In this document: positions 6,300-18,175 of the stretch, piece by piece
How positions within the stretch are numbered: position 1 is the stretch's first letter
Layout of the letters: each line of letters opens with the position of its first letter
Assembly: GCF_018326265.1 (NCBI RefSeq)
Contig: NZ_AP023360.1
Span: forward strand, 5,427,501-5,491,500
Origin: Catellatospora sp. IY07-71
Lineage (GTDB): Bacteria; Actinomycetota; Actinomycetes; Mycobacteriales; Micromonosporaceae
Reading direction: 5' to 3'
Length of the DNA: 64,000 bases
Position numbers and translations under genes: made by a program
The notes under the pieces: generated by a model
Seen by the model: the letters and a program-made list of their open reading frames with translations, nothing else
Database searches by the model: none
Told to the model about the DNA's origin: nothing

Positions 6300-7361
6300 T
6301 CACCGCCAGCGGCTGCCGGTGAAGGCGTACTCGATCCGATCGATGACCTCCGCCGGCAGCGTCAGCTGCTCCCGCTTCGCCCGCGCCTGCACCTGGGCGG
6401 TCACCGCCCGCTCCACCGCCACCTGGCTCAGGATGGTGCGCACCGCCTGCTCCACCGGCATGAACCGGCCACCCAGTACCGAGAACGTCCGGTATGCCGA
6501 GAAGTGCGCCGCCTCGGGGCGCAGCCGGATCACCGGCGGCAGGTCCGCCCAGTCCTCGGGCAACTCGCCCTCCCACAGCTGCGGCTCCGCCACGATCGCA
6601 CCCCGGTCGCGCAGCATGCCCAGCCGCAGCAGATGCCACACCGCGGCCAGGAACGCGCACGACCACAGCCGCCCGTCCGCCTCGTCGCGCCACAGCTCCA
6701 CGTCGACGAAGACCGAGTGGTTGCCGGCACTGTTCTCGCTCGGCCCCCGCCAGCTCGCCCCGGACCGCATCGCCTCGGCCACGTCCACGGCGGGGCTGCT
6801 CGCTCCGTTGCTGCGCCAGCCCGACTCGGCGGTCGGCGGGCGCAGGTCCCGCCCCTGCTCACGGGTGCCGTTGGTGAGCCAGCCCGCCTCGTGCTCGGCC
6901 TCGCCGACGCCGCTGGCACCCGGCGCCGGATCGGGGACGAGCTGCGCCTGCACCAGGCTGGCCAGCGGGACTCCGGACGCGACGGCGCAGGCGGACTCCC
7001 GGGCCAGGTAGTCGATGGTCAGACCGGCCTGCTCGGCCGCCAGCCGCAGCTGCGGGATGACCGCCCGCGGCGACCAGGGCAGGTCGCTGCGGGCCAGCCG
7101 GCCCGCCACGTCCGGCCGGGTGAAGTAATCGTCGACGAGGAAGCAGGTGCTGATCCTGGGCGTACGCGGCGCCACCCCGGCCCGGCACACCGCCATGGCC
7201 GTCCGCACCCACGGTGCGACCTGCTCGAACGTCTCGCGCAGCCGGGCCGGTCCGGCGATGTAGTCCTCCATGTACAGGTGCCCGAGCTCGATCGACAGGT
7301 GCGCCAGCGGCAGCTCAGCGACCCGGTCCTGCGCGGCGGCCTCGACGTATACGGCGCTCAC
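6300..7361 (-). CDS. SCO2522 family protein
   Basis: A 353-aa soluble protein matching the actinobacterial SCO2522 family: AHLSIELGHLYMEDY near the N-terminus, STCFLVDDYF, LARESACA, and C-terminal SAYRTFSVLGGRF. Function is unknown. The GTG start at 7361 overlaps the stop codon of the upstream SCO2523-type gene in a GTGA arrangement, which implies translational coupling and fixes the start well; the next in-frame ATG (MEDY) would remove conserved residues. The middle (about residues 165-215) is poor in conserved motifs and looks like a variable linker. It is the last gene of a three-gene minus-strand operon and ends 4 bases from the convergent membrane-protein gene. Confidence 0.8.
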   Translation of the reverse strand: MSAVYVEAAAQDRVAELPLAHLSIELGHLYMEDYIAGPARLRETFEQVAPWVRTAMAVCRAGVAPRTPRISTCFLVDDYFTRPDVAGRLARSDLPWSPRAVIPQLRLAAEQAGLTIDYLARESACAVASGVPLASLVQAQLVPDPAPGASGVGEAEHEAGWLTNGTREQGRDLRPPTAESGWRSNGASSPAVDVAEAMRSGASWRGPSENSAGNHSVFVDVELWRDEADGRLWSCAFLAAVWHLLRLGMLRDRGAIVAEPQLWEGELPEDWADLPPVIRLRPEAAHFSAYRTFSVLGGRFMPVEQAVRTILSQVAVERAVTAQVQARAKREQLTLPAEVIDRIEYAFTGSRWR

Positions 7362-8287
7362 AGCATCGCCCACGCATTCTCGCTGTCGAGATTGCGGGCC
7401 AGCGCCACGAACGCCTCCACCGTCTCGGCATTGGCCACCTGCCGCGACACCGTGTCGGTGTCCGTGATCAGCTGCTCGCGCCACTGCAGCACCGGGTCCA
7501 GCGGGACCGAGCCGATGGTCGTCGTACGCCCGATCCGCAGTTTCGTGGCCAGCGCCTTGAGATCGGTGTCGCACTTGCGCAGCCAGGCCACCTGCTCCGG
7601 GCGCAGCCCGGCCAGCGAGTCGGACTCCGGATCGACCACGGCGGTGCGCACGAAACGCACCCGCTCCAGCAGCCACGCGGGGTCGAGTTGGGGCGTGCCG
7701 TTGTTCGCTCTGCCCAGCTCCAGCAGCCCGTGCTTGCCGAAGACCAGCCCGTGGGCGGCGATGATGTGCTGGCGGGTCCAGCGGTGGAACACCAGCCAGC
7801 GGCTGTCCACCCGCTGCAGCTCCGGCAGCGCCGTCGCGGCCAGCACGATCTCGGTGGCGTGCGAGCGCCCGGCGCTCAGGTCGATCAGGCAGACGTCGAA
7901 CTCGGCGTCCAGGCGGGCGAGCAGGCGCGCGCAGCGCTTGACGATCTCGCGGGTGCCGGGGAACTCGCCGCCGAACTCGTCGCCGGGAAACAGCACCAGC
8001 TTGCCCGCCCGGCTGGGCCGTCCGCGCAGGCTGGACCGGTCGGAGTGCGACCACACGTCCAGGCGCAGCGGCGGGTCGGCCCGGCCCTGCAGGAAGGAGT
8101 GGATCCCGCCAGTGGCCGCGCCGCGGCGCACCGAGTCGATGTCGAAGATCGTCCCGGCGGTCGGCGAGCCGAAGTCGAAGTCCAGGTAGGCGACGTTGCT
8201 GCCGGTCAGCGCCCTGCGATACGCGAGGTTGCTGCTGGTCACCGACCGGCCGGTGCCGCCCTTGTCCGAGGTGGCGAAGACCAGCAT
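7358..8287 (-). CDS. SCO2523 family variant P-loop NTPase (ParA/MinD-like)
   Basis: A 309-aa protein beginning MLVFATSDKGGTGRSVTSS. This is a deviant Walker A of the MinD/ParA type in which the usual K-T/S after the second glycine reads R-S, matching the name variant P-loop. A second acidic strand (VAYLDFDFG) and a Walker-B-like strand (DVCLIDLSAGRS) follow, as in SIMIBI-class ATPases. Such proteins usually bind ATP and position or switch partners; whether the R-for-K change abolishes hydrolysis is unknown. The ATG at 8287 lies 2 bases after the SCO2524-type stop, and its own stop overlaps the SCO2522-type start. It is therefore the central gene of a tightly coupled operon and the best mechanistic clue to the block. 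Confidence 0.8.
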   Translation of the reverse strand: MLVFATSDKGGTGRSVTSSNLAYRRALTGSNVAYLDFDFGSPTAGTIFDIDSVRRGAATGGIHSFLQGRADPPLRLDVWSHSDRSSLRGRPSRAGKLVLFPGDEFGGEFPGTREIVKRCARLLARLDAEFDVCLIDLSAGRSHATEIVLAATALPELQRVDSRWLVFHRWTRQHIIAAHGLVFGKHGLLELGRANNGTPQLDPAWLLERVRFVRTAVVDPESDSLAGLRPEQVAWLRKCDTDLKALATKLRIGRTTTIGSVPLDPVLQWREQLITDTDTVSRQVANAETVEAFVALARNLDSENAWAML

Positions 8288-8289
8288 GA

Positions 8290-10137
8290 TCAGAAGACCT
8301 CCGTCGTGTCCCGCGACGCGACGAGGGAGTCCAGGTCGGCCAGCGCCAGCAGCAGCAGCGACACCGCGGTGCCCGGCCGGGAGGGCATGATCTCGCGGGC
8401 TCTGCGGATCCGCTGGCGCACCGCCTCCAGCCGCTTGCGTTCCGGTGCGCCGCTCTCCGACGTGCCCGCCAGCAGCTCCTGGGAGTAGAGGTGGTCCGCC
8501 TCGGCCAGCAGGCTGTGCGCGTGGTCGAGCAGCGACTCGCTGCGCAGGGGCTGGTCGTAGGCCAGACGCGCGGCCAGGACCAGGCTCTCCACCACCCGGA
8601 CCGTGTGGTGCCAGGACGGGCTCGGGTCGCCGGGCTCCAGCGGGTAGACCCGGCTCGGGTCGTCCCACAGCCCCGGCTCCTCGTCCACGACGCTGCGCCG
8701 CAGCGCGACGTGGTCCCACAGGTCGTCGGCGAGGCTGACGGCCTCGCCCCGCAGGTCGATGCGGTCGACCAGCCCGGCGACCATGACGGCCCGCTTGAGC
8801 AGCAGGGGCGCGAAGTCGGCGGCCACCCAGCTGAGCCGCGGCGAGAACTCCGTGGCGCCCTCGACCTCGATCGCGACGCCGGGGGAGTGCAGCTTCAGCG
8901 CGGGGTCCTCACGCAGCGGCCGCCGGGTCATCCGGCTGCGGTTGGCGAGCTCGGCGAGGATCTCCCCGAGCCGCTGCAGGTCCAGATCGTTCGGGCGGAC
9001 GGACAGGTTGCGGGCCGCGATCGAGGTCACCAGGAGGCTGAAGTAGTCCGACTCGACGCCGTCCACGGTGCGCCACGGGATGTCCTGCAGCGGCCAGCGC
9101 TTGGTGCCGAACGAGGCGACGATGGACCAGTACCGCTGGGTGAGGTCCCAGCGCAGGCGCAGCGCGGTCGCGATCTTCAGCTGTTCGTCGTCGAGCAGGC
9201 GCAGCAGCCGGGTGCGGTCGTTGTTGAGGTCGGCGATGGCGTCGAGCGCCACCACGGTGAAGTACAGGTACGGCGCGTCGAGCGCCACACCGGGGACCTG
9301 CTGGCCGAGGTCGACGGGGAAGTCGACCGGCGTGGCGTTGTTGTGCACGCTCCAGGACCAGCCGCACTCGAAGAGCATGTCCTCGCGTTCGATCTGCTCG
9401 ACCTGGGTCAGGCCGACGGTGAGGTCGCGCAGGCCGGCCGCGACCTCCCGCAGCGACACCCGAAGGTCCTCGACCACCCGGCGGTGCGGCTCATTGCCCT
9501 GGTTCACCGTGCGCAGCAGCGTCGTCGCGAACTCGCCGTCGACGGGGAAGACACTGATCGAGAAGCTGCGCAGCAGGCCGATCATCGCGGCCGACAGCCG
9601 CCGGCTGGCCGCCTCCTCGACCTTCGCCAGCCGTGCCCGCAGCTCCGGACGGGTCACCGACCTGCTGAAGACCTTGATGAAACCGAGCGACGACAGCATG
9701 AGCGGGATCGAGGCCGCGAACGACTCGACCACCGGCAGCGCGCGCTGCTCGGCGGTGGGCTCCTCGCCGGGGAACAGGGGAGAGAAGTAACTGCCGCCCG
9801 AGAAGATCGGCGTGCCGTCGGGTGCGGTGTAGCGCTCCAGGTACTCCATCACCAGCCCGATGAGGAACTGCGGAATGTCGATCGCGCCGCCGAAAGGGCG
9901 CAGCACCGCCAGCAGGTCCTCGTCGGTGGAGTTGGGCTCGTCCAGCCGGAACTGCGGGATCTCGGTGGACGGCAGCATCAGGCAGAGGAGCTGCTCGGCA
10001 TCGGAGATCGAATTGGAGCCGTCCCGGCCGCCCCAGCGCCATTCCCGCTTTCCCCGCGAGCCCGGCACCGGGGCGAAGGCGACCCTGGCGGTCGCGCTCC
10101 AGATGTCCATGAGTTCTTGCCTCGGCTTGATTCTCAT
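8290..10137 (-). CDS. SCO2524 family protein
   Basis: A 615-aa soluble protein with the family hallmark near the N-terminus: MRIKPRQELMDIW, then WGGRDGSNSISDAEQLLCL. The rest is mostly helical, with no recognised catalytic motif, signal peptide or membrane helix; a membrane or filament partner is possible. The start at 10137 is chosen because the conserved M-x-I-x-PRQ sequence begins there; an in-frame ATG four codons upstream is an alternative. It leads the SCO2524-2523-2522 operon and is divergent from the aminotransferase gene across 217 bp. The SCO2525-type methyltransferase that commonly accompanies this family is not in the window. Confidence 0.8.
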   Translation of the reverse strand: MRIKPRQELMDIWSATARVAFAPVPGSRGKREWRWGGRDGSNSISDAEQLLCLMLPSTEIPQFRLDEPNSTDEDLLAVLRPFGGAIDIPQFLIGLVMEYLERYTAPDGTPIFSGGSYFSPLFPGEEPTAEQRALPVVESFAASIPLMLSSLGFIKVFSRSVTRPELRARLAKVEEAASRRLSAAMIGLLRSFSISVFPVDGEFATTLLRTVNQGNEPHRRVVEDLRVSLREVAAGLRDLTVGLTQVEQIEREDMLFECGWSWSVHNNATPVDFPVDLGQQVPGVALDAPYLYFTVVALDAIADLNNDRTRLLRLLDDEQLKIATALRLRWDLTQRYWSIVASFGTKRWPLQDIPWRTVDGVESDYFSLLVTSIAARNLSVRPNDLDLQRLGEILAELANRSRMTRRPLREDPALKLHSPGVAIEVEGATEFSPRLSWVAADFAPLLLKRAVMVAGLVDRIDLRGEAVSLADDLWDHVALRRSVVDEEPGLWDDPSRVYPLEPGDPSPSWHHTVRVVESLVLAARLAYDQPLRSESLLDHAHSLLAEADHLYSQELLAGTSESGAPERKRLEAVRQRIRRAREIMPSRPGTAVSLLLLALADLDSLVASRDTTEVF

Positions 10138-10354
10138 GCGCCAGGACACCATCCCCACGGTAACGGCCTGCCGCCGCCCTGGCCTGCTCAGGCGGCGGCT
10201 CAGCAGGCATCGCAGCGCGAGCGGGCGGCGGTCTAGATTAGATTGCTCGCCACATCGTATGTCACGGATGCCACGATGTCCTTTCCTGCACATGCGAGAA
10301 CACACCGACGATAGACGACTCCGCGGCCGAATGAAGCGACCGGGAGAAGGGCGC

Positions 10355-11581
10355 ATGAATCCGCCTTTCGAGATCCGTGCTTCCGCGATTCGCCGACGTC
10401 CCTATGGTGGGTCGGTGGACATCCATCAGGCGAAGATCCAGTACGTCAGCCGGCCGGGCATTCTCGACCTGGCATGGGGTCATCCGCGGCCCGGGCTGCT
10501 GCCCGTCGAGCAGTGGCTGGACGCGGCGGGCGGCGCGCTGCGCTCACACGGGTGGCAGGCCCTGACCTACGGCGCCGCGGCCGGGCCGCGGCCGCTCGTC
10601 GAGTGGCTGACCGGCCATCTGGCCGAGGCTGCCGACGGCGGCACGCGCACCTCGGAGATCTTCGTCAGCAACGGCGCCTCCCACGGTCTCGCGCTGGCCG
10701 CCGAGCTGCTCGTCAAGCCCGGCGACGTGGTGCTGGTCGACTCGCCGACCTACCACCTCGCCTTCGGGACCCTGCGCGATCGGGGCGCCGAGCTGGTCGG
10801 GGTGCCGGCCGACGCGGAAGGGATGGACGTCGCCGCCACTGCGGAGCTGATCGGGAGGCTGGCGCGCGGCGGGCGGCGCGTCCCGATGCTGTACCTCGTG
10901 CCCACGTTCGCCAACCCGACCGGCCGCTGCCTGCCCCGGCAGCGCCGGGTCGAGCTGGTCGAGCTGGCCGCCCGCACCGCACTGACGATCGTGGAGGACG
11001 ACACGTACCGCGAGCTGGCGTACGAGGGCGCGGCACCGCCTTCGCTGTGGAGCCTGGGGGAGCGCGGCACCGTCGTCCGGCTCGGCACGTTCGCCAAGAC
11101 CGTCGCACCCGGGCTGCGGCTGGGCTGGATCAACGCCGACGCCGCGTTCGTGCGGCGGCTGACCGGCCTCGGGTACATCACCAGCGGTGGGGGAGTCAAT
11201 CACACGACGGCGCTGAGCATGGCCGCCTTCGGTGCCTCCGGGGCCTACCTGAGCCATGTCGCCGACCTTCGCCGCCACTACGCCGCACAGCGTGACGCGC
11301 TCCTGGCGGGCCTGCGTGAATCAGCACCGGACCTGCGGGTGTCGACACCGGACGGCGGCTGGTTCCTGTGGGCCGAGCTGCCCCCGCCGCTGACGGCGGG
11401 CGAGCTGGCGCCGGCCGCCGAGGCGAACGGGGTCGCCTTCGTGCCGGGGTCCCGGTTCTTCGCCGACGGCACCGGCGGCCGGTCCCACCTCCGGTTATCG
11501 TTCTCGATGCTGGCAGCCGACGACCTGGCCGAGGCCGCGGCCAGGCTCGGCCGGGCAGTGGCGCAGTGCTCGCCGTCCTGA
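10355..11581 (+). CDS. PLP-dependent aminotransferase class I/II (MocR-like catalytic domain, no HTH)
   Basis: A 408-aa fold-type I PLP enzyme. Visible motifs are FVSNGASHGLAL (phosphate-binding region), PTYH, YLVPTFANPTGR (cofactor-contacting asparagine), IVEDDTYRELAY (the aspartate that holds the pyridine nitrogen), and GTFAKTVAPGLRLGW, where the lysine forms the Schiff base. The C-terminal GGWFLW and RLSFS motifs bind the substrate carboxylate. This resembles the aminotransferase half of MocR regulators and 2-aminoadipate-type transaminases, but no winged-helix domain is present. The ATG at 10355 follows GGGAGAAGG closely; a GTG at 10415 is an alternative. Substrate cannot be assigned from sequence. 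A terminator-like hairpin follows. Confidence 0.85.
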   Translation: MNPPFEIRASAIRRRPYGGSVDIHQAKIQYVSRPGILDLAWGHPRPGLLPVEQWLDAAGGALRSHGWQALTYGAAAGPRPLVEWLTGHLAEAADGGTRTSEIFVSNGASHGLALAAELLVKPGDVVLVDSPTYHLAFGTLRDRGAELVGVPADAEGMDVAATAELIGRLARGGRRVPMLYLVPTFANPTGRCLPRQRRVELVELAARTALTIVEDDTYRELAYEGAAPPSLWSLGERGTVVRLGTFAKTVAPGLRLGWINADAAFVRRLTGLGYITSGGGVNHTTALSMAAFGASGAYLSHVADLRRHYAAQRDALLAGLRESAPDLRVSTPDGGWFLWAELPPPLTAGELAPAAEANGVAFVPGSRFFADGTGGRSHLRLSFSMLAADDLAEAAARLGRAVAQCSPS

Positions 11582-11677: not shown

Positions 11678-14600
11678 TCAGCCGGGCAGCAGCAGCGGAC
11701 CGCCGTGACCGGGCAGACCCCGGTCGACCGGGATCGGCTCCTCGACCGCCCCGTCGGCGATGACGCCCTGTGCCCGGGTCTGCCCGGCCAGGCGCTCGTA
11801 GTAGGCCGACACCGCCGTGAGCACGTCACGGACGGCGTTCAGCAGCGTGGCTCCCGCCTGCTCGACGACGTCGGCCTCGTGGACCTCGAAGGCCCGGATG
11901 CCCTGCAGCACGGCGGATTTGAGGTCGCTGAGCAGTTGGACGTCGGCGTGCGCGTACGTCCGGCACAGCGCGGTCACCCGGGGAACGTCCTCGCCGGTCA
12001 GCAGCAGCTCCTTGACGGCGCTCACGGAGTTGCGCACCAGCGCGACGTCCGGCCGGGCCGACAGGGCGGCGAGTTCGGCGTCGAGCTGCCGGACGTCCTG
12101 CTGCGGGTCGCAGAAGCCGACGGTGTGCTGCCACAGGGTGCGCAGGTCGTCGTGCAGGAGCCCGTCGAGGTAGCTGACCAGGAACCGGCGGTGCCCCTCG
12201 ACGACGTACTGCGCCTTGAAGGGCGTCAGTTCCCGGGGGTCTTCGCCCAGGGTGGTGACCGAGGTGGTGAAGCCGTAGTCGGCGCTGAGCGCGTTCCTCA
12301 TCGCGACCAGCATGTACAGGAACCGCACCCAGGTCCGGAACAGTTCCTCCAGCGGCAGCGAGCGCAGGCCTTCCTCGTCGAGCACCACGCCCCAGCGGGC
12401 GCCGAACTGCAACCGGCGCAGGTGGCCGATCTGGTACATCGAGAGCTGGGAGTCGATCTCGGCGTGCGCGTGGTGCAGCACCTTCCGGTACGCCGCGGTC
12501 GCGTCCATGCCGACGTAGTTGCGCACGATGTGCGGCCCGCCGATGTGCAGGTGGATGAACTCGCTGACGTCGATCACGGCGCCGCCGATCGCCATCCAGT
12601 AGCCCGCCTCGGGCGTGTCGTGCTGCGCGAGGTCGGATATCTCCACGCGCGGAGTCTGCTGCGCGTGGCCCAGGTACGTGGTGAAGACGTCCTGGGCGAG
12701 ACGCCCGTCGGCCACCAGCTGACGCAGGAACTCGCGGCCGTCGCCGGGCACGATGCCGGTCAGCGCCTGGAGCACGGCCACAGCGAAACGCGAGCTGCCG
12801 CAGACGTAGACGAACGCGCCACGGCCGCCGTCGGCGACCGGCCGCAGCAGCTCCCACAGGGCGTCGGCCTCGGCGCGGATCACGTCGTCGACCCGGCGCC
12901 GCTGCCCGGCCCCGACACCGTGGCGCCGGCCGTCGAACTGGATCGCGGCATCGGCACGGGAGAACGCGACGGACAGGTGCAGCCGGCCCGCGGCGACCGC
13001 CGTATCCAGCTCGGGGTGTTCGACGAACTCGTCCGGCGTCCGGATGCCCAGGTAGAGCCGGTTCTCGCCGGGCCCGGTGCGGGCGGCGACGAACCCCAGG
13101 AACGGGGCGATCCCGGAGCCGGCGGCGAACATGACCACCGGCCGGGCCGGGTCGGCGGGCAGCCGGAACCTGGGCGTGGCCACGATCTGCAGGGACAGCC
13201 GCTGCCTGCCGTCCTGGCCGGCCCGGCGCAGGAAGTGCGACGCCGCGCCCTGGCGCTTGCGCGGATACGACCACGGCGTGCGGGCGGAGGTGTAGTCGAG
13301 GCCGCCGACGACCAGTTTCAGGCTTGTCGCCGGTTCGCCGGGCGGCGGGGCCGAAGCGATCGAGTACAGCCGGAACGGCTCGGGCGCGACGACCGCGCAG
13401 AAGGCGTCGTGCTCGCCCGCGTCGGCCTTCCATAGCCGGGTGACGTCATATCCGCCCGCGTACAGCAGGTTCAGGACGTCCCACAGCTCCCACTGGTCCT
13501 CCATGCGGGCGTCGACGACCCGCTGCCACGCGCCGACGGCCGTGAGCTTCACCAGCCGTTTCGCCACCTCCCGGCCGATCGGCCGCAGCTGGGCGAAGCG
13601 CAGCAGCGTCCGCAGCGGCAGGACGTCGACCTCGCCGTAGCCCTCCCGGCAGGCCACCGCCGCCCGCCATCGCGGGGTGAGCGGCACCAGCTCGTCGCCG
13701 GTGGCCTGCAGCGCGGCGACCGTGCGGCGCACCAGGTCGTCGTCGTGCTCGGCCAGCACGCCGACCCGGTCGCCGGGCAGGTGGTGCACGCCCTGGCCGG
13801 TGACGTCGATGTCCAGGTAGCAGGTCCAGGCGCCGGACTCGCCGGTGACGACCCGGCCCCGGCGTGCGGTCCCGAACACCACGGGCGCGCCCACCGGAGG
13901 GCGGCGTTCCTCGCGGACGACGGCCAGCTCCCCGTCGACCTTGTCCCAGGTCCGGTCCTTGAACAGCCCGGTGAACCGGGCGCCGGTGGTCACCTGCCGG
14001 CCGACCTTGAACGCCACCTCCAGGAAGCCGTACGCCTTGATGCGGTGCAGGCCCATCCAGCCGCGGTCGCCGACGTAGGCGTTCAGCATGGCGTTGTAGA
14101 CCCCGCGCAGGGCGCTGCTGCGGCTGTCCTCCACGTACTGGCGCACCGACACCTCACGCAGCGCCGCCACCAGTTCCTGCCAGTGCCGCGGGAAGTAGCC
14201 GGCGAGGTAGGTGCTCTGCTGCCCGACCAGCGAGCCGTAGTCCCTGCGTTCGAGGAACGCGTCCAGCGCGTGGATCTGGGGCTGGGCGGTGCCGCTCGGG
14301 CTGGGCGCGCCGTCGAAGATCGGCACTCCGGCCGTGCCGACGGTCTTGGCCCACAGCACCTGGTCCAGCGGATGCCGGGCGCGGGGGTTCGGATCGATCT
14401 GGGGGTAGATCGCCTGGGTGACGTGCTGCAGCTGGTCGAGGATCACCAGCAGCGCGCCTTCCAGGGCGGCCGGGTCGTCGGCGACCACCGCCTCCTGGGC
14501 GTCGAGCATGGCCCCCAGCACGGGGGTGAGCCCCATCGCGAACTCGGTCGTGACCAGGTAGAACACCCGCTCGGCGGCGTTGTTCCAGGTCGGCACGAGC

Positions 14601-15385
14601 AGGTCCATGTTGTCCAGCGCCCGGGGCCCGGACGGGTCGCGCAGGCGCCAGTTGTAGAAGAACAGGTCGATGTACGACACGGCCGGGGTCTGCTTGCCCA
14701 GCCGCCGCGAGACGGTGGTCCACGGCCGCAGCAGCGAGTCGGGCAGCGCGGCCGGCGGGTCGATCGCCATGTACTGGTAGGCGTGGGCGAAGACGCCGAG
14801 CATGGTCGAGGCGCGCAGCAGGTAGCGGTCGGGCAGCGCCTCGGGTCTCGCGTCGAGGACCGGCATCGCGTCGAACGCCCGGCGCAGCGTGAGCCGGCGG
14901 AACAGGTCGGGCAGCCGGTCGGTCATGTCGTCCCAGGCGCGGTGCGAGTCCGGGAACGCCAGCAGCGGAGGCTGCGCGGGCAGGAACCCGTGCGCGAGCG
15001 ATAGGAATCCGTCGAGTTCGTGCCCGACCCGCTGGTTGTGTGCCTGCGCGGCCTCGACCACCCGCCGTGCGGCGACGTCGGGCGGGGCTTCGGGCCGGTG
15101 GATGGTCAGGTGGGCGTCGTCGACGGCCATCGTGGCGTTCGGGTCGACGTGCCGCCACGTCAGGTCGAACCGGCCGATCCGGATCCGGTCCCCGGGAGCG
15201 ACCGCCTGGCGGCGGGTCAGCCGCTGGTCGTTGACGTAGGTGCCGTTGGTGCTGCCGAGATCGGTCAGCACGAGATAGTCGTCGATCATCTCCAGGCGGG
15301 CGTGGCGCCGGGAGACGCTGCTGTCGTCGAGCGCCACCGCGGCCACGCCCGCGTCACGGCCGAACGTGATCGGCAGCGCGCACAC
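11678..15385 (-). CDS. FHA-IDO-like heme dioxygenase-FAD/NAD(P)H reductase-cytochrome b5 fusion protein
   Basis: 1235 aa (numbered from the GTG at 15385). Residues 1-90 are an FHA phosphothreonine-binding domain (GRD, SVSRRHARLE, DLGSTNGTYVN). Residues about 110-480 are an indoleamine-dioxygenase/PrnB-like helical domain; LHRIKAYG places a likely proximal heme His at 447. Residues about 500-900 resemble the FAD and NAD(P)H modules of sulfite or P450 reductases: RLYSIAS (Arg672), AAGSGIAPFLGF, and FVYVCGSSRF. Residues about 915-985 are a cytochrome-b5-like domain with HIGG at 947-950 in place of HPGG. The last 230 residues are helical and unassigned. I infer an electron path NAD(P)H-FAD-b5-dioxygenase heme. 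The FHA domain lacks its first strand unless translation begins further upstream, at CTG 15421 or ATT 15442; no ATG/GTG/TTG is available there. The CBS gene ends just before it. Confidence 0.8.
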   Translation of the reverse strand: MCALPITFGRDAGVAAVALDDSSVSRRHARLEMIDDYLVLTDLGSTNGTYVNDQRLTRRQAVAPGDRIRIGRFDLTWRHVDPNATMAVDDAHLTIHRPEAPPDVAARRVVEAAQAHNQRVGHELDGFLSLAHGFLPAQPPLLAFPDSHRAWDDMTDRLPDLFRRLTLRRAFDAMPVLDARPEALPDRYLLRASTMLGVFAHAYQYMAIDPPAALPDSLLRPWTTVSRRLGKQTPAVSYIDLFFYNWRLRDPSGPRALDNMDLLVPTWNNAAERVFYLVTTEFAMGLTPVLGAMLDAQEAVVADDPAALEGALLVILDQLQHVTQAIYPQIDPNPRARHPLDQVLWAKTVGTAGVPIFDGAPSPSGTAQPQIHALDAFLERRDYGSLVGQQSTYLAGYFPRHWQELVAALREVSVRQYVEDSRSSALRGVYNAMLNAYVGDRGWMGLHRIKAYGFLEVAFKVGRQVTTGARFTGLFKDRTWDKVDGELAVVREERRPPVGAPVVFGTARRGRVVTGESGAWTCYLDIDVTGQGVHHLPGDRVGVLAEHDDDLVRRTVAALQATGDELVPLTPRWRAAVACREGYGEVDVLPLRTLLRFAQLRPIGREVAKRLVKLTAVGAWQRVVDARMEDQWELWDVLNLLYAGGYDVTRLWKADAGEHDAFCAVVAPEPFRLYSIASAPPPGEPATSLKLVVGGLDYTSARTPWSYPRKRQGAASHFLRRAGQDGRQRLSLQIVATPRFRLPADPARPVVMFAAGSGIAPFLGFVAARTGPGENRLYLGIRTPDEFVEHPELDTAVAAGRLHLSVAFSRADAAIQFDGRRHGVGAGQRRRVDDVIRAEADALWELLRPVADGGRGAFVYVCGSSRFAVAVLQALTGIVPGDGREFLRQLVADGRLAQDVFTTYLGHAQQTPRVEISDLAQHDTPEAGYWMAIGGAVIDVSEFIHLHIGGPHIVRNYVGMDATAAYRKVLHHAHAEIDSQLSMYQIGHLRRLQFGARWGVVLDEEGLRSLPLEELFRTWVRFLYMLVAMRNALSADYGFTTSVTTLGEDPRELTPFKAQYVVEGHRRFLVSYLDGLLHDDLRTLWQHTVGFCDPQQDVRQLDAELAALSARPDVALVRNSVSAVKELLLTGEDVPRVTALCRTYAHADVQLLSDLKSAVLQGIRAFEVHEADVVEQAGATLLNAVRDVLTAVSAYYERLAGQTRAQGVIADGAVEEPIPVDRGLPGHGGPLLLPG

Positions 15386-15434
15386 CCGCTCGCTGGTCGC
15401 CTGGGTGTGCCGATCGGTCAGGATGAGCCGGAGT

Positions 15435-15878
15435 TCAGGAATGGTAGATCACCGCTCGGCACAGGTCGGCGCGGGACAGCGTGCCCACGAGCTTGCCGTC
15501 GTCGACGACGGGCAGCCGCCGGATCCCGCGGTCGATCATGACGATCGCCGCCCGGGCGAGTTCGTCGGTCGAGCGGACGCTCGCCGTATCGCGTACGACG
15601 AGCGGGTCGACGGGGCGGTCGGCCAGGGTGCGGCCCCGGTCCAGGAAGATCCGGAACGCGTCGGCGAGCGTGCCGCCGCCGGCGGTGACGTCGTCGAAGC
15701 CGGGCAGCATGGCCCGCACCAGGTCCTCTTCGGACAGCGAGCCGACAAACCGGCCGTCGTGGTCCAGCACCATCAGGTTGCCGACCTCCGACACGCTCAC
15801 CACCTCGGCCGCCCGCCGGATCGTGGCGCCGAGCCGTATGTACGCCGGGAACGCCGTCATCACGTCGCTGACCCGCAC
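15435..15878 (-). CDS. CBS-domain pair protein
   Basis: A 147-aa protein made almost entirely of two CBS motifs (about residues 5-60 and 85-145). Conserved features are VSDVMT at the N-terminus, GNLMVLDHDGRFVGSLSEEDL in the first CBS, and RRLPVVDDGKLVGTLSRADL in the second. Such modules bind adenine nucleotides and often act as energy sensors. The GTG at 15878 is chosen because GGGAGG lies just upstream and the sequence then starts with the usual V-x-D-V-M-T; a longer frame to 15953 adds a non-conserved lead. Its stop codon lies at or inside the beginning of the FHA-dioxygenase gene, so the two are probably translated together. I infer it could tune the redox protein. Confidence 0.8.
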   Translation of the reverse strand: MRVSDVMTAFPAYIRLGATIRRAAEVVSVSEVGNLMVLDHDGRFVGSLSEEDLVRAMLPGFDDVTAGGGTLADAFRIFLDRGRTLADRPVDPLVVRDTASVRSTDELARAAIVMIDRGIRRLPVVDDGKLVGTLSRADLCRAVIYHS

Positions 15879-16056
15879 GCCACCTCCCAAAAGGGCTCTG
15901 GACCGGCCTGCAGCCGGTCGGGCGTACGACCTGTTGGGCGAATCGGCCGCCACCGTCGAGTTTAGCCAGACGGGTGCCCGGCGATGATCCGATGATCGGC
16001 GAATGCCGGGATCCGTTAGGGCGACCTCGGCGTCAGCGGCGCGACGTGGGCACTGT

Positions 16057-17946
16057 TCACCACTGTGCTGATCGAGGCGTCAACAGGGGCCGCAGCGCCT
16101 CCAGCACCGCCGGATCCTCGATGGTGGACGGGGCCGACTCGTCCCGCCCGTCCGCCATCGCGCGCATCGTCTTACGCAGGATCTTGCCGGACCGCGTCTT
16201 GGGCAGCGCGGACACGACGTCGACGGCGGACGGCGCCGCGATCGGGCCGATCTGCTCGCGCACCAGCCGGATCAGCTCCTGGCGCAGCGCGTCCACCTCG
16301 ACCCGGGCGCCGGCCTTGAGCACGACCAACGCCCTCGGCACCTGCCCCTTGACCGAGTCGTGAACACCGATGACCGCGCATTCGGCCACGGCCGGGTGAC
16401 CGGCGAGCACCTGTTCCATCGCACCGGTCGACAGGCGGTGGCCGGCGACGTTGATGACGTCGTCGATACGGCCCATGACGTAGAGATAGCCGTCGGCGTC
16501 GACGTGCCCGCCGTCGCCGGTCAGGTAGAAGCCCGGGTGCGCGGACAGGTATGACTCCACGAACCGGGTGTCGTCGCGCCACAGCGTCGGCAGCGTCCCC
16601 GGCGGCAGCGGCAGCCGGATCACGATCTCCCCGTCCTCGCCGGCCGGCACGGGCCTGCCCAGCGAGTCGACCACGCGCACGTCATAACCCGGCACGGGCA
16701 CCGTCGCGGAACCGGGCCGCGGTTCACGCGGCTCCAGCCCCATCAGGTTCGCGGCGACCGGCCAGCCCGTCTCCGTCTGCCACCAGTGATCGACGACGGG
16801 CACGCCCAGCAGCCGCGCCGCCCAGCCGTACGTATCCGGGTCCAGGCGCTCGCCGGCGAGGAAGAGATACCGCAGGCCGGACAGGTCCGCGTCCTGAACC
16901 CGCAGCCCCTCGGGGTCGTCACGGCGGATCGCCCGGAACGCCGTCGGCGCGGTGAACAGTGCCTTGACCCCGTGCTCGGCGATGACCCGCCAGAACGCAC
17001 CGGAATCCGGCGTGCCCACCGGCTTGCCCTCGTAGAGCACCGTGGTGCAGCCGGTGATCAGCGGCCCGTACACGATGTAGGAGTGCCCCACCACCCAGCC
17101 GATGTCGGACGCGGCCCAGAACACCTCGCCGGGGTGGGTGTCATAGATGTACTTCATGCTCCAGCGCAGCGCCACGGCGTGCCCGCCGTTGTCCCGGACC
17201 ACCCCCTTCGGGCGGGCGGTCGTGCCGGAGGTGTAGAGGATGTAGAGCGGGTCGGTCGCCGCGACCGGTACGCAGCCGGCGGGTTCGGCCGCGGCCATGG
17301 CCTCGGACCAGTCGACGTCACGTCCCGCCGTCAGCGCCGCGGCGGCCTGCGGCCGTTGCAGGATCACACAGGCACGCGTCTCATGAGCCGCCGTCTCGAT
17401 CGCACTGTCGAGGATCGGCTTGTACTCGATGACCCGGTTGACCTCGATGCCGCACGACGCGGACACGATCACGGCAGGCTCGGCGTCCTCGATGCGCAGC
17501 GCCAGCTCGTGAGCGGCGAACCCGCCGAACACCACCGAGTGCACGGCTCCGATCCGCGCGCAGGCGAGCATCGCGACGACCGCCTCCGGCACCATCGGCA
17601 TGTAGATCAGCACCCGGTCGCCCTGCTCCACACCCAGGCCCCGCAGCACCCCGGCGAACCGCGCCACCTGGTCGAGCAGCTCGGCATAGGTCAGCGTCCG
17701 GTCGGCACCGGTGACCGGGGTGTCGTACACGAGCGCGGCCTGCTCGCCTCGGCCGTCGCGTACGTGCCGGTCGAGCGCGTTGAAGCACGTGTTGAGCACA
17801 CCGTCGGGAAACCAGCGGTAGAACGGTGGCCGCGTGTCGTCCAGCACGGTGGTGGGTGCGCGGAACCACTCGATGTCTGCGGCCGCCTCACCCCAGAAGC
17901 CGGTGGGGTCCTGGATACTGCGGCGGTACGCCTCCGTGTAGTCCAT
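16057..17946 (-). CDS. prpE: Propionyl-CoA/acetyl-CoA synthetase (PrpE type)
   Basis: A 629-aa member of the adenylate-forming superfamily that activates short-chain acids to acyl-CoA via an acyl-AMP. Motifs: YILYTSGTTARPKGVV (P-loop), WWQTETGWP (adenine-binding motif), YLTGDGG (ribose-binding Asp), MGRIDDVINVAGHRLSTG (hinge) and PKTRSGKILRK, whose final lysine catalyses adenylation. The N-terminal YTEAYRRSIQDPTGFWGE and VVRDNGGHAVAL favour the PrpE subgroup over Acs. The ATG at 17946 follows GGAGGG by 8 bases; a GTG at 17955 is in frame but worse placed. It is followed, after about 180 bp, by the CBS and FHA-dioxygenase genes on the same strand. Propionate and acetate are both plausible substrates. 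Confidence 0.85.
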   Translation of the reverse strand: MDYTEAYRRSIQDPTGFWGEAAADIEWFRAPTTVLDDTRPPFYRWFPDGVLNTCFNALDRHVRDGRGEQAALVYDTPVTGADRTLTYAELLDQVARFAGVLRGLGVEQGDRVLIYMPMVPEAVVAMLACARIGAVHSVVFGGFAAHELALRIEDAEPAVIVSASCGIEVNRVIEYKPILDSAIETAAHETRACVILQRPQAAAALTAGRDVDWSEAMAAAEPAGCVPVAATDPLYILYTSGTTARPKGVVRDNGGHAVALRWSMKYIYDTHPGEVFWAASDIGWVVGHSYIVYGPLITGCTTVLYEGKPVGTPDSGAFWRVIAEHGVKALFTAPTAFRAIRRDDPEGLRVQDADLSGLRYLFLAGERLDPDTYGWAARLLGVPVVDHWWQTETGWPVAANLMGLEPREPRPGSATVPVPGYDVRVVDSLGRPVPAGEDGEIVIRLPLPPGTLPTLWRDDTRFVESYLSAHPGFYLTGDGGHVDADGYLYVMGRIDDVINVAGHRLSTGAMEQVLAGHPAVAECAVIGVHDSVKGQVPRALVVLKAGARVEVDALRQELIRLVREQIGPIAAPSAVDVVSALPKTRSGKILRKTMRAMADGRDESAPSTIEDPAVLEALRPLLTPRSAQW

Positions 17947-18175
17947 GATCGGCACCCTCCGGCAATGCGTGGACCGGCGGCGGGCCGGATGCCCTTCCGG
18001 CTCGGGCCAGCCAGGTTCGGCGTTCGTCGACCTTCGTCACGGACGTGCCGTCCTGAGTACCCCGGATGGCGCCGGATGATGCATCCGGCACGCGCCTGAG
18101 TGTCGGCTCACCAGAGGGCAGCGTCACCATTGCGGCAAAGTCGATTGCCAGAAACGTGTCCCCTGCGCCGCGACA

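Follow-up and report, generated by a model that had tools for sequence, protein, structure and literature searches.

How does a heme oxygenase with the fold of indoleamine 2,3-dioxygenase (IDO) obtain its electrons, and for what kind of reaction? The enzymes described as MarE or PrnB type are single-domain proteins that use outside reductants, and the study of His-ligated aromatic oxygenases such as PrnB has been held back by the missing working electron donor. A gene of Catellatospora sp. IY07-71 raises the question anew. It lies in a stretch of 64,000 nucleotides (contig NZ_AP023360.1, positions 5,427,501 to 5,491,500), referred to as the window, and it encodes in one polypeptide an IDO-fold heme domain, a cytochrome P450 reductase (CPR)-type FAD module and a cytochrome b5. 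In such a fusion the reaction type and the electron supply are directly testable in one protein.

We describe here the architecture, distribution and genomic surroundings of this fusion. Its family is real and widespread and is not described in the literature that was searched: as the original prediction had suspected, no characterized enzyme of this architecture was found in open-licence PubMed Central, judged by title and abstract opening among the matches listed, subscription papers lying mostly outside this collection. The interpretation we favour, at roughly even chances, is that of an NADPH-driven, self-sufficient His-heme oxygenase built on the fold of IDO and the heme-dependent aromatic oxygenases (HDAO), probably monooxygenase-like, acting on a substrate other than tryptophan and placed under CBS/FHA control. 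If true, the fusion would join P450BM3 and flavohemoglobin among the self-sufficient heme oxygenases, as a new class of its own. The family reaches several phyla, is linked to a CBS-domain partner and is tied, in some lineages, to the synthesis of low-molecular-weight thiols.

Domain organization of the fusion

The open reading frame (ORF) that starts with GTG (11678-15385, minus strand) encodes 1235 amino acids without an internal stop. Residues are numbered below from the ATT start codon discussed further on (GTG numbering + 19); coordinates of the domain scans are given in GTG numbering. A Pfam scan identified, in this order, FHA (PF00498, 6-71, E = 2.9e-18, 66.5 bits, cut-off 20.7), IDO (PF01231, 130-436, E = 7e-30, 104.5 bits, cut-off 26), NAD_binding_1 (752-871, E = 1.1e-05, 26.4 bits, cut-off 22) and Cyt-b5 (PF00173, 917-989, E = 2.2e-12, 47.3 bits, cut-off 23.7). 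This agrees with the single polypeptide and the succession of domains originally predicted. FAD_binding_1 remained under its cut-off (13.7 against 32.3 bits, E = 0.049), and NCBIfam models of the CysJ type span residues 508-901, far under their equivalog cut-offs. Matches obtained with phmmer against the PDB include sulfite reductase flavoprotein, CPR, P450BM3-type reductases, IDO2 and IDO1. Neither Pfam nor NCBIfam revealed an FMN (flavodoxin) domain, the CysJ models matching only from position 184 of 539 or 254 of 597 onwards. The b5 domain is followed by a fifth part of about 245 residues (about 1009-1254), which has no confident match in Pfam or the PDB.

The motifs of the electron chain are intact. 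In an alignment of 53 proteins longer than 1000 amino acids, His466, Arg691, Gly775, Gly777, Pro780, Ser828, Cys881, Gly882, His966, Gly968, Gly969 and His990 are invariant; these include the RxYS arginine, the GxGxAP glycines, the CG cysteine and both b5 histidines. Tyr693, Ser694 and Ser735 are present in 52 of the proteins and Arg829 in 44. Judged by these motifs, the sites for flavin, NADPH and the heme of b5 appear functional; the SR motif (Ser828, Arg829) is a marker of NADPH preference. The FHA domain includes Arg29, Ser44, His47 and Asn66, which we take to be its phosphopeptide-binding residues.

Like P450BM3 and flavohemoglobin, the fusion has a heme oxygenase and an NAD(P)H chain on the same polypeptide; it differs from them in having an IDO fold instead of a P450 or globin fold, and an additional b5 heme. 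The FAD and NADPH modules are shared with CPR, the sulfite reductase flavoprotein and the P450BM3 reductase, but the fusion lacks their FMN domain and continues with b5 instead. In NCB5OR-type fusions, too, b5 and an NAD(P)H reductase share a single chain, but there is no oxygenase domain; their reductase type and domain order differ from those found here. Compared with IDO1, IDO2 and stand-alone bacterial IDOs, the fusion adds the reductase, the b5 and the C-terminal region.

A role in anti-phage defence was considered and rejected, neither the fusion nor the adjacent CBS protein having a PADLOC match at E <= 0.001.

The IDO-fold domain and its active site

An AlphaFold model of the IDO region superposes on human IDO1 with 2.0 Å over 344 residues, and the IDO fold proposed earlier for residues 110-480 (GTG numbering) is thereby upheld. 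PF01231 scores are nevertheless only 80-120 bits in the fused proteins, against 212-356 in stand-alone IDOs. As points of reference in IDO1 we use Phe163, Arg231, assumed to contact the substrate carboxylate, and the axial histidine. The position of Phe163 corresponds to residue 294, a phenylalanine in 30 of 33 aligned sequences. The loop matching the GTGGS of IDO and TDO does not retain the full motif, although a threonine and a glycine are largely kept (Table 1).

The most marked difference concerns Arg231. Depending on the method, its counterpart is residue 358 (HMMER against IDO2), 360 (hhalign) or 369 (MAFFT), and arginine occurs at none of these in any of the 33 sequences; between residues 340 and 380 no position is arginine in more than 14 of them. 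All four stand-alone IDOs compared keep the arginine. Within the domain, Trp364, Lys366, Gly384 and His466 are invariant (33/33).

The genome also carries a TDO gene adjoining a kynureninase gene (G000:C1 142941-145089) and a second TDO-like gene (463370-464125). Since TDO and kynureninase are encoded far from the window, the fusion is not needed for the tryptophan pathway, and a role in tryptophan catabolism was rejected. Because Arg231 is not kept and these enzymes are encoded elsewhere, free tryptophan is probably not the substrate. The tryptophan dioxygenase of the original prediction was not borne out, the low PF01231 scores pointing the same way.

Electron supply and proposed reaction

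In the path that we propose, the CPR-type domain would accept electrons from NADPH at its FAD and pass them singly to the bis-His cytochrome b5, which would replace the missing FMN domain. From b5 they would reach the IDO-domain heme with its histidine ligand, the site at which O2 would be activated. The chain would feed electrons at every turnover, as in a monooxygenase, beyond a single priming electron. We infer such a supply because no full-length member examined lacks the reductase or b5: a dioxygenase needs just the priming electron, and a retained reductase fits turnover-by-turnover reduction better.

The same path is suggested by the reported behaviour of IDO, MarE and CPR. Human IDO can turn over to a monooxygenated product only if its iron is reduced again, whereas formation of N-formylkynurenine needs the first electron only (PMC12921851). 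MarE is shifted to monooxygenation by ascorbate (PMC12312684). NADPH-CPR, with or without cytochrome b5, supports human IDO1 in vitro (PMC13142367), which accords with the earlier remark that b5 and its reductase do so. MarE and PrnB, set beside the fusion by description only, resemble it in the same fold class and in the proposed reductant-dependent monooxygenation. The fusion would work with its CBS-pair partner and be tuned by FHA in part of the family and by cyclic-nucleotide domains in one member.

Several observations weigh against this interpretation. The first concerns the heme ligand. In alignments the axial histidine of stand-alone IDOs faces residue 470, which is alanine in 21, valine in 8 and threonine in 4 of the 33 sequences and never histidine. 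Residue 470 lies one helical turn, four residues, past the invariant His466. An insertion of 7 residues directly precedes the axial helix of the fused proteins and is absent from IDO1, IDO2 and the stand-alone IDOs. It makes a shift of register, with His466 serving as the ligand of the IDO heme, plausible but unproved, and this is the weakest link of our proposal. That residue 470 is never histidine also agrees with a sensor of redox state or gas, not an enzyme. In such a sensor the canonical site of the IDO domain would have little or no affinity for heme, and the chain would inform CBS and FHA partners of the NADPH/O2 state. Signalling domains (FHA, CBS, cyclic-nucleotide) have indeed been attached repeatedly. 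The invariant His466, Trp364, Lys366 and Gly384, together with the intact electron-chain motifs, look catalytic, however, and we regard such a sensor as quite improbable.

The second concerns the substrate. Lys366 lies inside the Arg231 segment and could take over the arginine's contact with a carboxylate; with the conserved threonine of the GTGGS loop, it would keep an amino-acid substrate possible. Both residues, the IDO fold itself and the support of IDO1 by CPR and b5 (PMC13142367) would also suit a canonical indole-amine dioxygenase with built-in activation, in which the NADPH-FAD-b5 chain would just re-reduce ferric heme and the ring of tryptophan or another indole would be opened. This dioxygenase we consider rather unlikely, though with an appreciable chance: arginine is missing at every Arg231-aligned position, the IDO-family score is low, TDO and kynureninase are already present, and no kynurenine-pathway gene was found among the annotated neighbours, which are only part of all neighbours.

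Two further points concern the oxygenase itself. PrnB, itself an HDAO, is reported to have stayed inactive with b5, CPR and the other electron donors listed (PMC11791213), and no substrate gene is common to the loci. The heme, flavin and activity of the fusion are predictions, and regulation by FHA and CBS is proposed from the names of the domains.

Distribution of the family

Among 40 further genomes examined as relatives, 7 encode a full-length orthologue, with identities of 61-97% by search and 60-97% by alignment, and the whole architecture is conserved across these seven. Within the genus the distribution is patchy, 5 of 10 genomes carrying an orthologue. A pattern-based scan of 84,980 species yielded 55 loci in five phyla: Actinomycetota (Catellatospora, Dactylosporangium, Streptosporangiaceae and Pseudonocardia), Chloroflexota, Armatimonadota, Pseudomonadota and Myxococcota. 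Many of the distant members come from metagenome bins. A lone oddity or a misassembly is rejected by the orthologues in relatives and by these 55 loci.

IDO-type genes, whether fused or not, are rare and occur in 4 of 396 actinomycetote genomes. Besides the Catellatospora genome itself, two of the four (G179 and G201) have long open frames with the IDO and NAD domains over, and the FAD domain under, the cut-offs; the position of b5 lies outside the stretch examined. Of 301 Chloroflexota genomes sampled, 11 have such genes, with three fused genes (open frames of 1170-1195 amino acids, 108-120 bits) and ten stand-alone IDO genes (212-352 bits). One stand-alone actinomycetote IDO (L087, 1300-3494) is followed by an alpha/beta-hydrolase-like ORF, judged by eye to be possibly a kynurenine formamidase.

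Some members carry further domains. In a Chromatiaceae protein (L075, 1318-6045), saccharopine-dehydrogenase-like NADP and C-terminal domains are fused at the C-terminus, and L076 has two cyclic-nucleotide-binding stretches there. In a tree of the family, the Ktedonobacter member L052 is sister to the actinomycetote clade; the long branches L075, L076, L078, L083 and L086 are placed with little certainty.

The gene and its start codon

Features of the gene and of its upstream neighbour are collected in Table 1. The GTG at 15385 would truncate the FHA domain, and an ATT start adds 19 residues that complete it. Upstream the frame stays open until a stop 21 codons ahead of the GTG, and a PELRL-type sequence ahead of the GTG is kept among relatives. 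ATT occurs at the homologous place in 27 of the 29 loci L032-L060, in addition to the window. As for the exceptions, L058 has ATG at exactly that place, as does L008, and L052 has an ATG further down. The true start is thus most likely the ATT at 15442 rather than the GTG. The same stretch is also constrained by the reading frame of the CBS gene, which weakens the argument from conservation. A start of this kind (window 15435-15453 and homologous places) is missed by gene finders limited to ATG, GTG and TTG.

Table 1. Coordinates in the window of the fusion gene, its parts and the CBS-pair gene
Feature	Position	Strand	Remarks
Whole fusion gene	11678..15442	-	1254 amino acids with ATT start; five regions: FHA, IDO, reductase, b5, C-terminal helical
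Probable ATT start codon	15440..15442	-	overlaps last codons of upstream CBS gene (CATTCCTGA)
FHA domain	15098..15442	-	residues 1-115; PF00498
IDO-fold heme domain	13898..15091	-	residues 118-515
His466, proposed axial heme ligand	14045..14047	-	53/53 and 33/33
Loop matching IDO/TDO GTGGS	13973..13996	-	Thr485 32/33, Gly487 30/33
CPR/CysJ-type FAD- and NADPH-binding reductase	12683..13864	-	residues 527-920; without FMN domain
Cytochrome b5 domain	12419..12637	-	residues 936-1008; PF00173
His966, first b5 heme ligand by motif (HxGG)	12545..12547	-	53/53 proteins
His990, second b5 heme ligand by motif	12473..12475	-	53/53 proteins
C-terminal region, modelled residues 995-1254	11681..12460	-	long helices
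CBS-pair protein, directly upstream	15435..15953	-	PF00571, 6.6e-21; overlaps fusion start; true start may lie later than 15953

The CBS partner and the FHA domain

Neighbourhoods were compared in 57 rows (the 55 loci, the window and L008), which include near-copies and are not independent. In 54 rows the fusion is preceded, on its own strand, by a gene with CBS domains, an arrangement suggesting co-expression. Of the three remaining rows, L077 and L085 are cut off within the gene, at its start, by the end of the contig, and L082 (Acrocarpospora corrugata) is a fragment: it has a match of 292 residues only and no CBS match, in a sequence without N.

The FHA domain was found in 36 of the 57 rows. 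Control through phospho-dependent FHA contacts, as originally proposed, is therefore possible but not general, the CBS partner being the more regular companion. In a tree of 32 rows the FHA label needs two changes, and the starred branches force two. On this tree FHA has been acquired or lost more than once, with CBS and the core persisting. The original prediction had overlooked the CBS partner and also the ATT start, the C-terminal region, how widely the family is spread and the linkage to thiol genes.

Linkage to thiol-synthesis genes

In four loci (L061, L062, L065 and L068) the fusion lies among genes for bacillithiol-type thiol synthesis, in differing gene orders. In the tree, L061 branches separately from L062, L065 and L068. 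Scored on L062, BshA (TIGR03999) reaches 291.5 bits (cut-off 273.7) and BshB1 (TIGR04001) 280.7 bits (cut-off 182.5), and homologues are present in the other three loci. All four also carry a protein of about 1015 amino acids with PIG-L, NPCBM-associated and cyclic-nucleotide-binding domains, determined on L062 (13186-16230), and with weak similarity to Mca. A further neighbour of 386-405 amino acids (L061 11561-12733, L062 11915-13129, L065 16537-17694, L068 14853-15980) has invariant SGQQ, DTDR and CxCG residues in the four sequences; it has no NCBIfam match (L061, L062 and L065) and no Pfam or PDB match (L062). We call it BshC-like on the basis of its motifs only. PF10079 is over its cut-off in none of the four thiol-linked genomes, and the protein may be the missing BshC there.

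Among 10 fusion-bearing genomes, a count which excludes that of L061 and includes several incomplete bins, BshA is over the cut-off in three (G435, G436 and G437), each time beside the fusion by coordinates, and in none of the other seven. The linkage thus looks real but not general.

The thiol genes hint, as a lead only, at electrophilic products. One could imagine the fusion as a bacterial counterpart of P450 phase I detoxification: an NADPH-powered monooxygenase of the IDO fold would form reactive, for example epoxide-like, products, which a bacillithiol-type thiol, the product of the adjoining BshA/BshB/BshC-like proteins, would capture; the conjugates would then be trimmed by the Mca-like (PIG-L) amidase with its cyclic-nucleotide domain, the whole being switched by FHA, CBS or cyclic-nucleotide domains. 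We regard this scheme as a long shot; if true, capture by thiol would hold where the oxygenase and thiol genes are joined.

The bacillithiol genes beside these four members could also be brought in for a nitric oxide (NO) dioxygenase or an enzyme of NO/thiol stress, analogous to flavohemoglobin, in which heme-bound O2 and NO would give nitrate and NADPH would re-reduce the heme. Both proteins join a heme domain to a reductase of the FAD-NAD(P)H kind, and NO dioxygenase activity of cytoglobin can be supported by cytochrome b5 (PMC3820574). No globin family appears among the Pfam matches of the fusion, however, nor any NO-related gene among the neighbours that are annotated, which are a part of the total. 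An NO-directed function seems highly improbable.

Other neighbouring genes

RidA genes occur in 9 rows, eight of them Chloroflexota loci and the ninth L086, and hint at enamine or imine products of the favoured oxygenase, again as a lead only. The CBS protein of L074, the only RidA-type locus scanned, has an N-terminal extension that matches response-regulator models under their cut-offs; its Pfam matches are CBS only.

In the window, SCO2522, SCO2523-variant and SCO2524 family genes adjoin the fusion (6300-10356, minus strand). A pyridoxal phosphate (PLP) enzyme whose nearest models, under their cut-offs, are those of enduracididine MppQ and MocR type lies at 9860-11581 (plus strand), and an acetate/propionate-CoA ligase at 16057-17955 (minus strand). 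Of the other 31 loci clustered, just 2 have a homologue of the PLP enzyme in the neighbourhood of the fusion, and just 1 has a homologue of the CoA ligase there.

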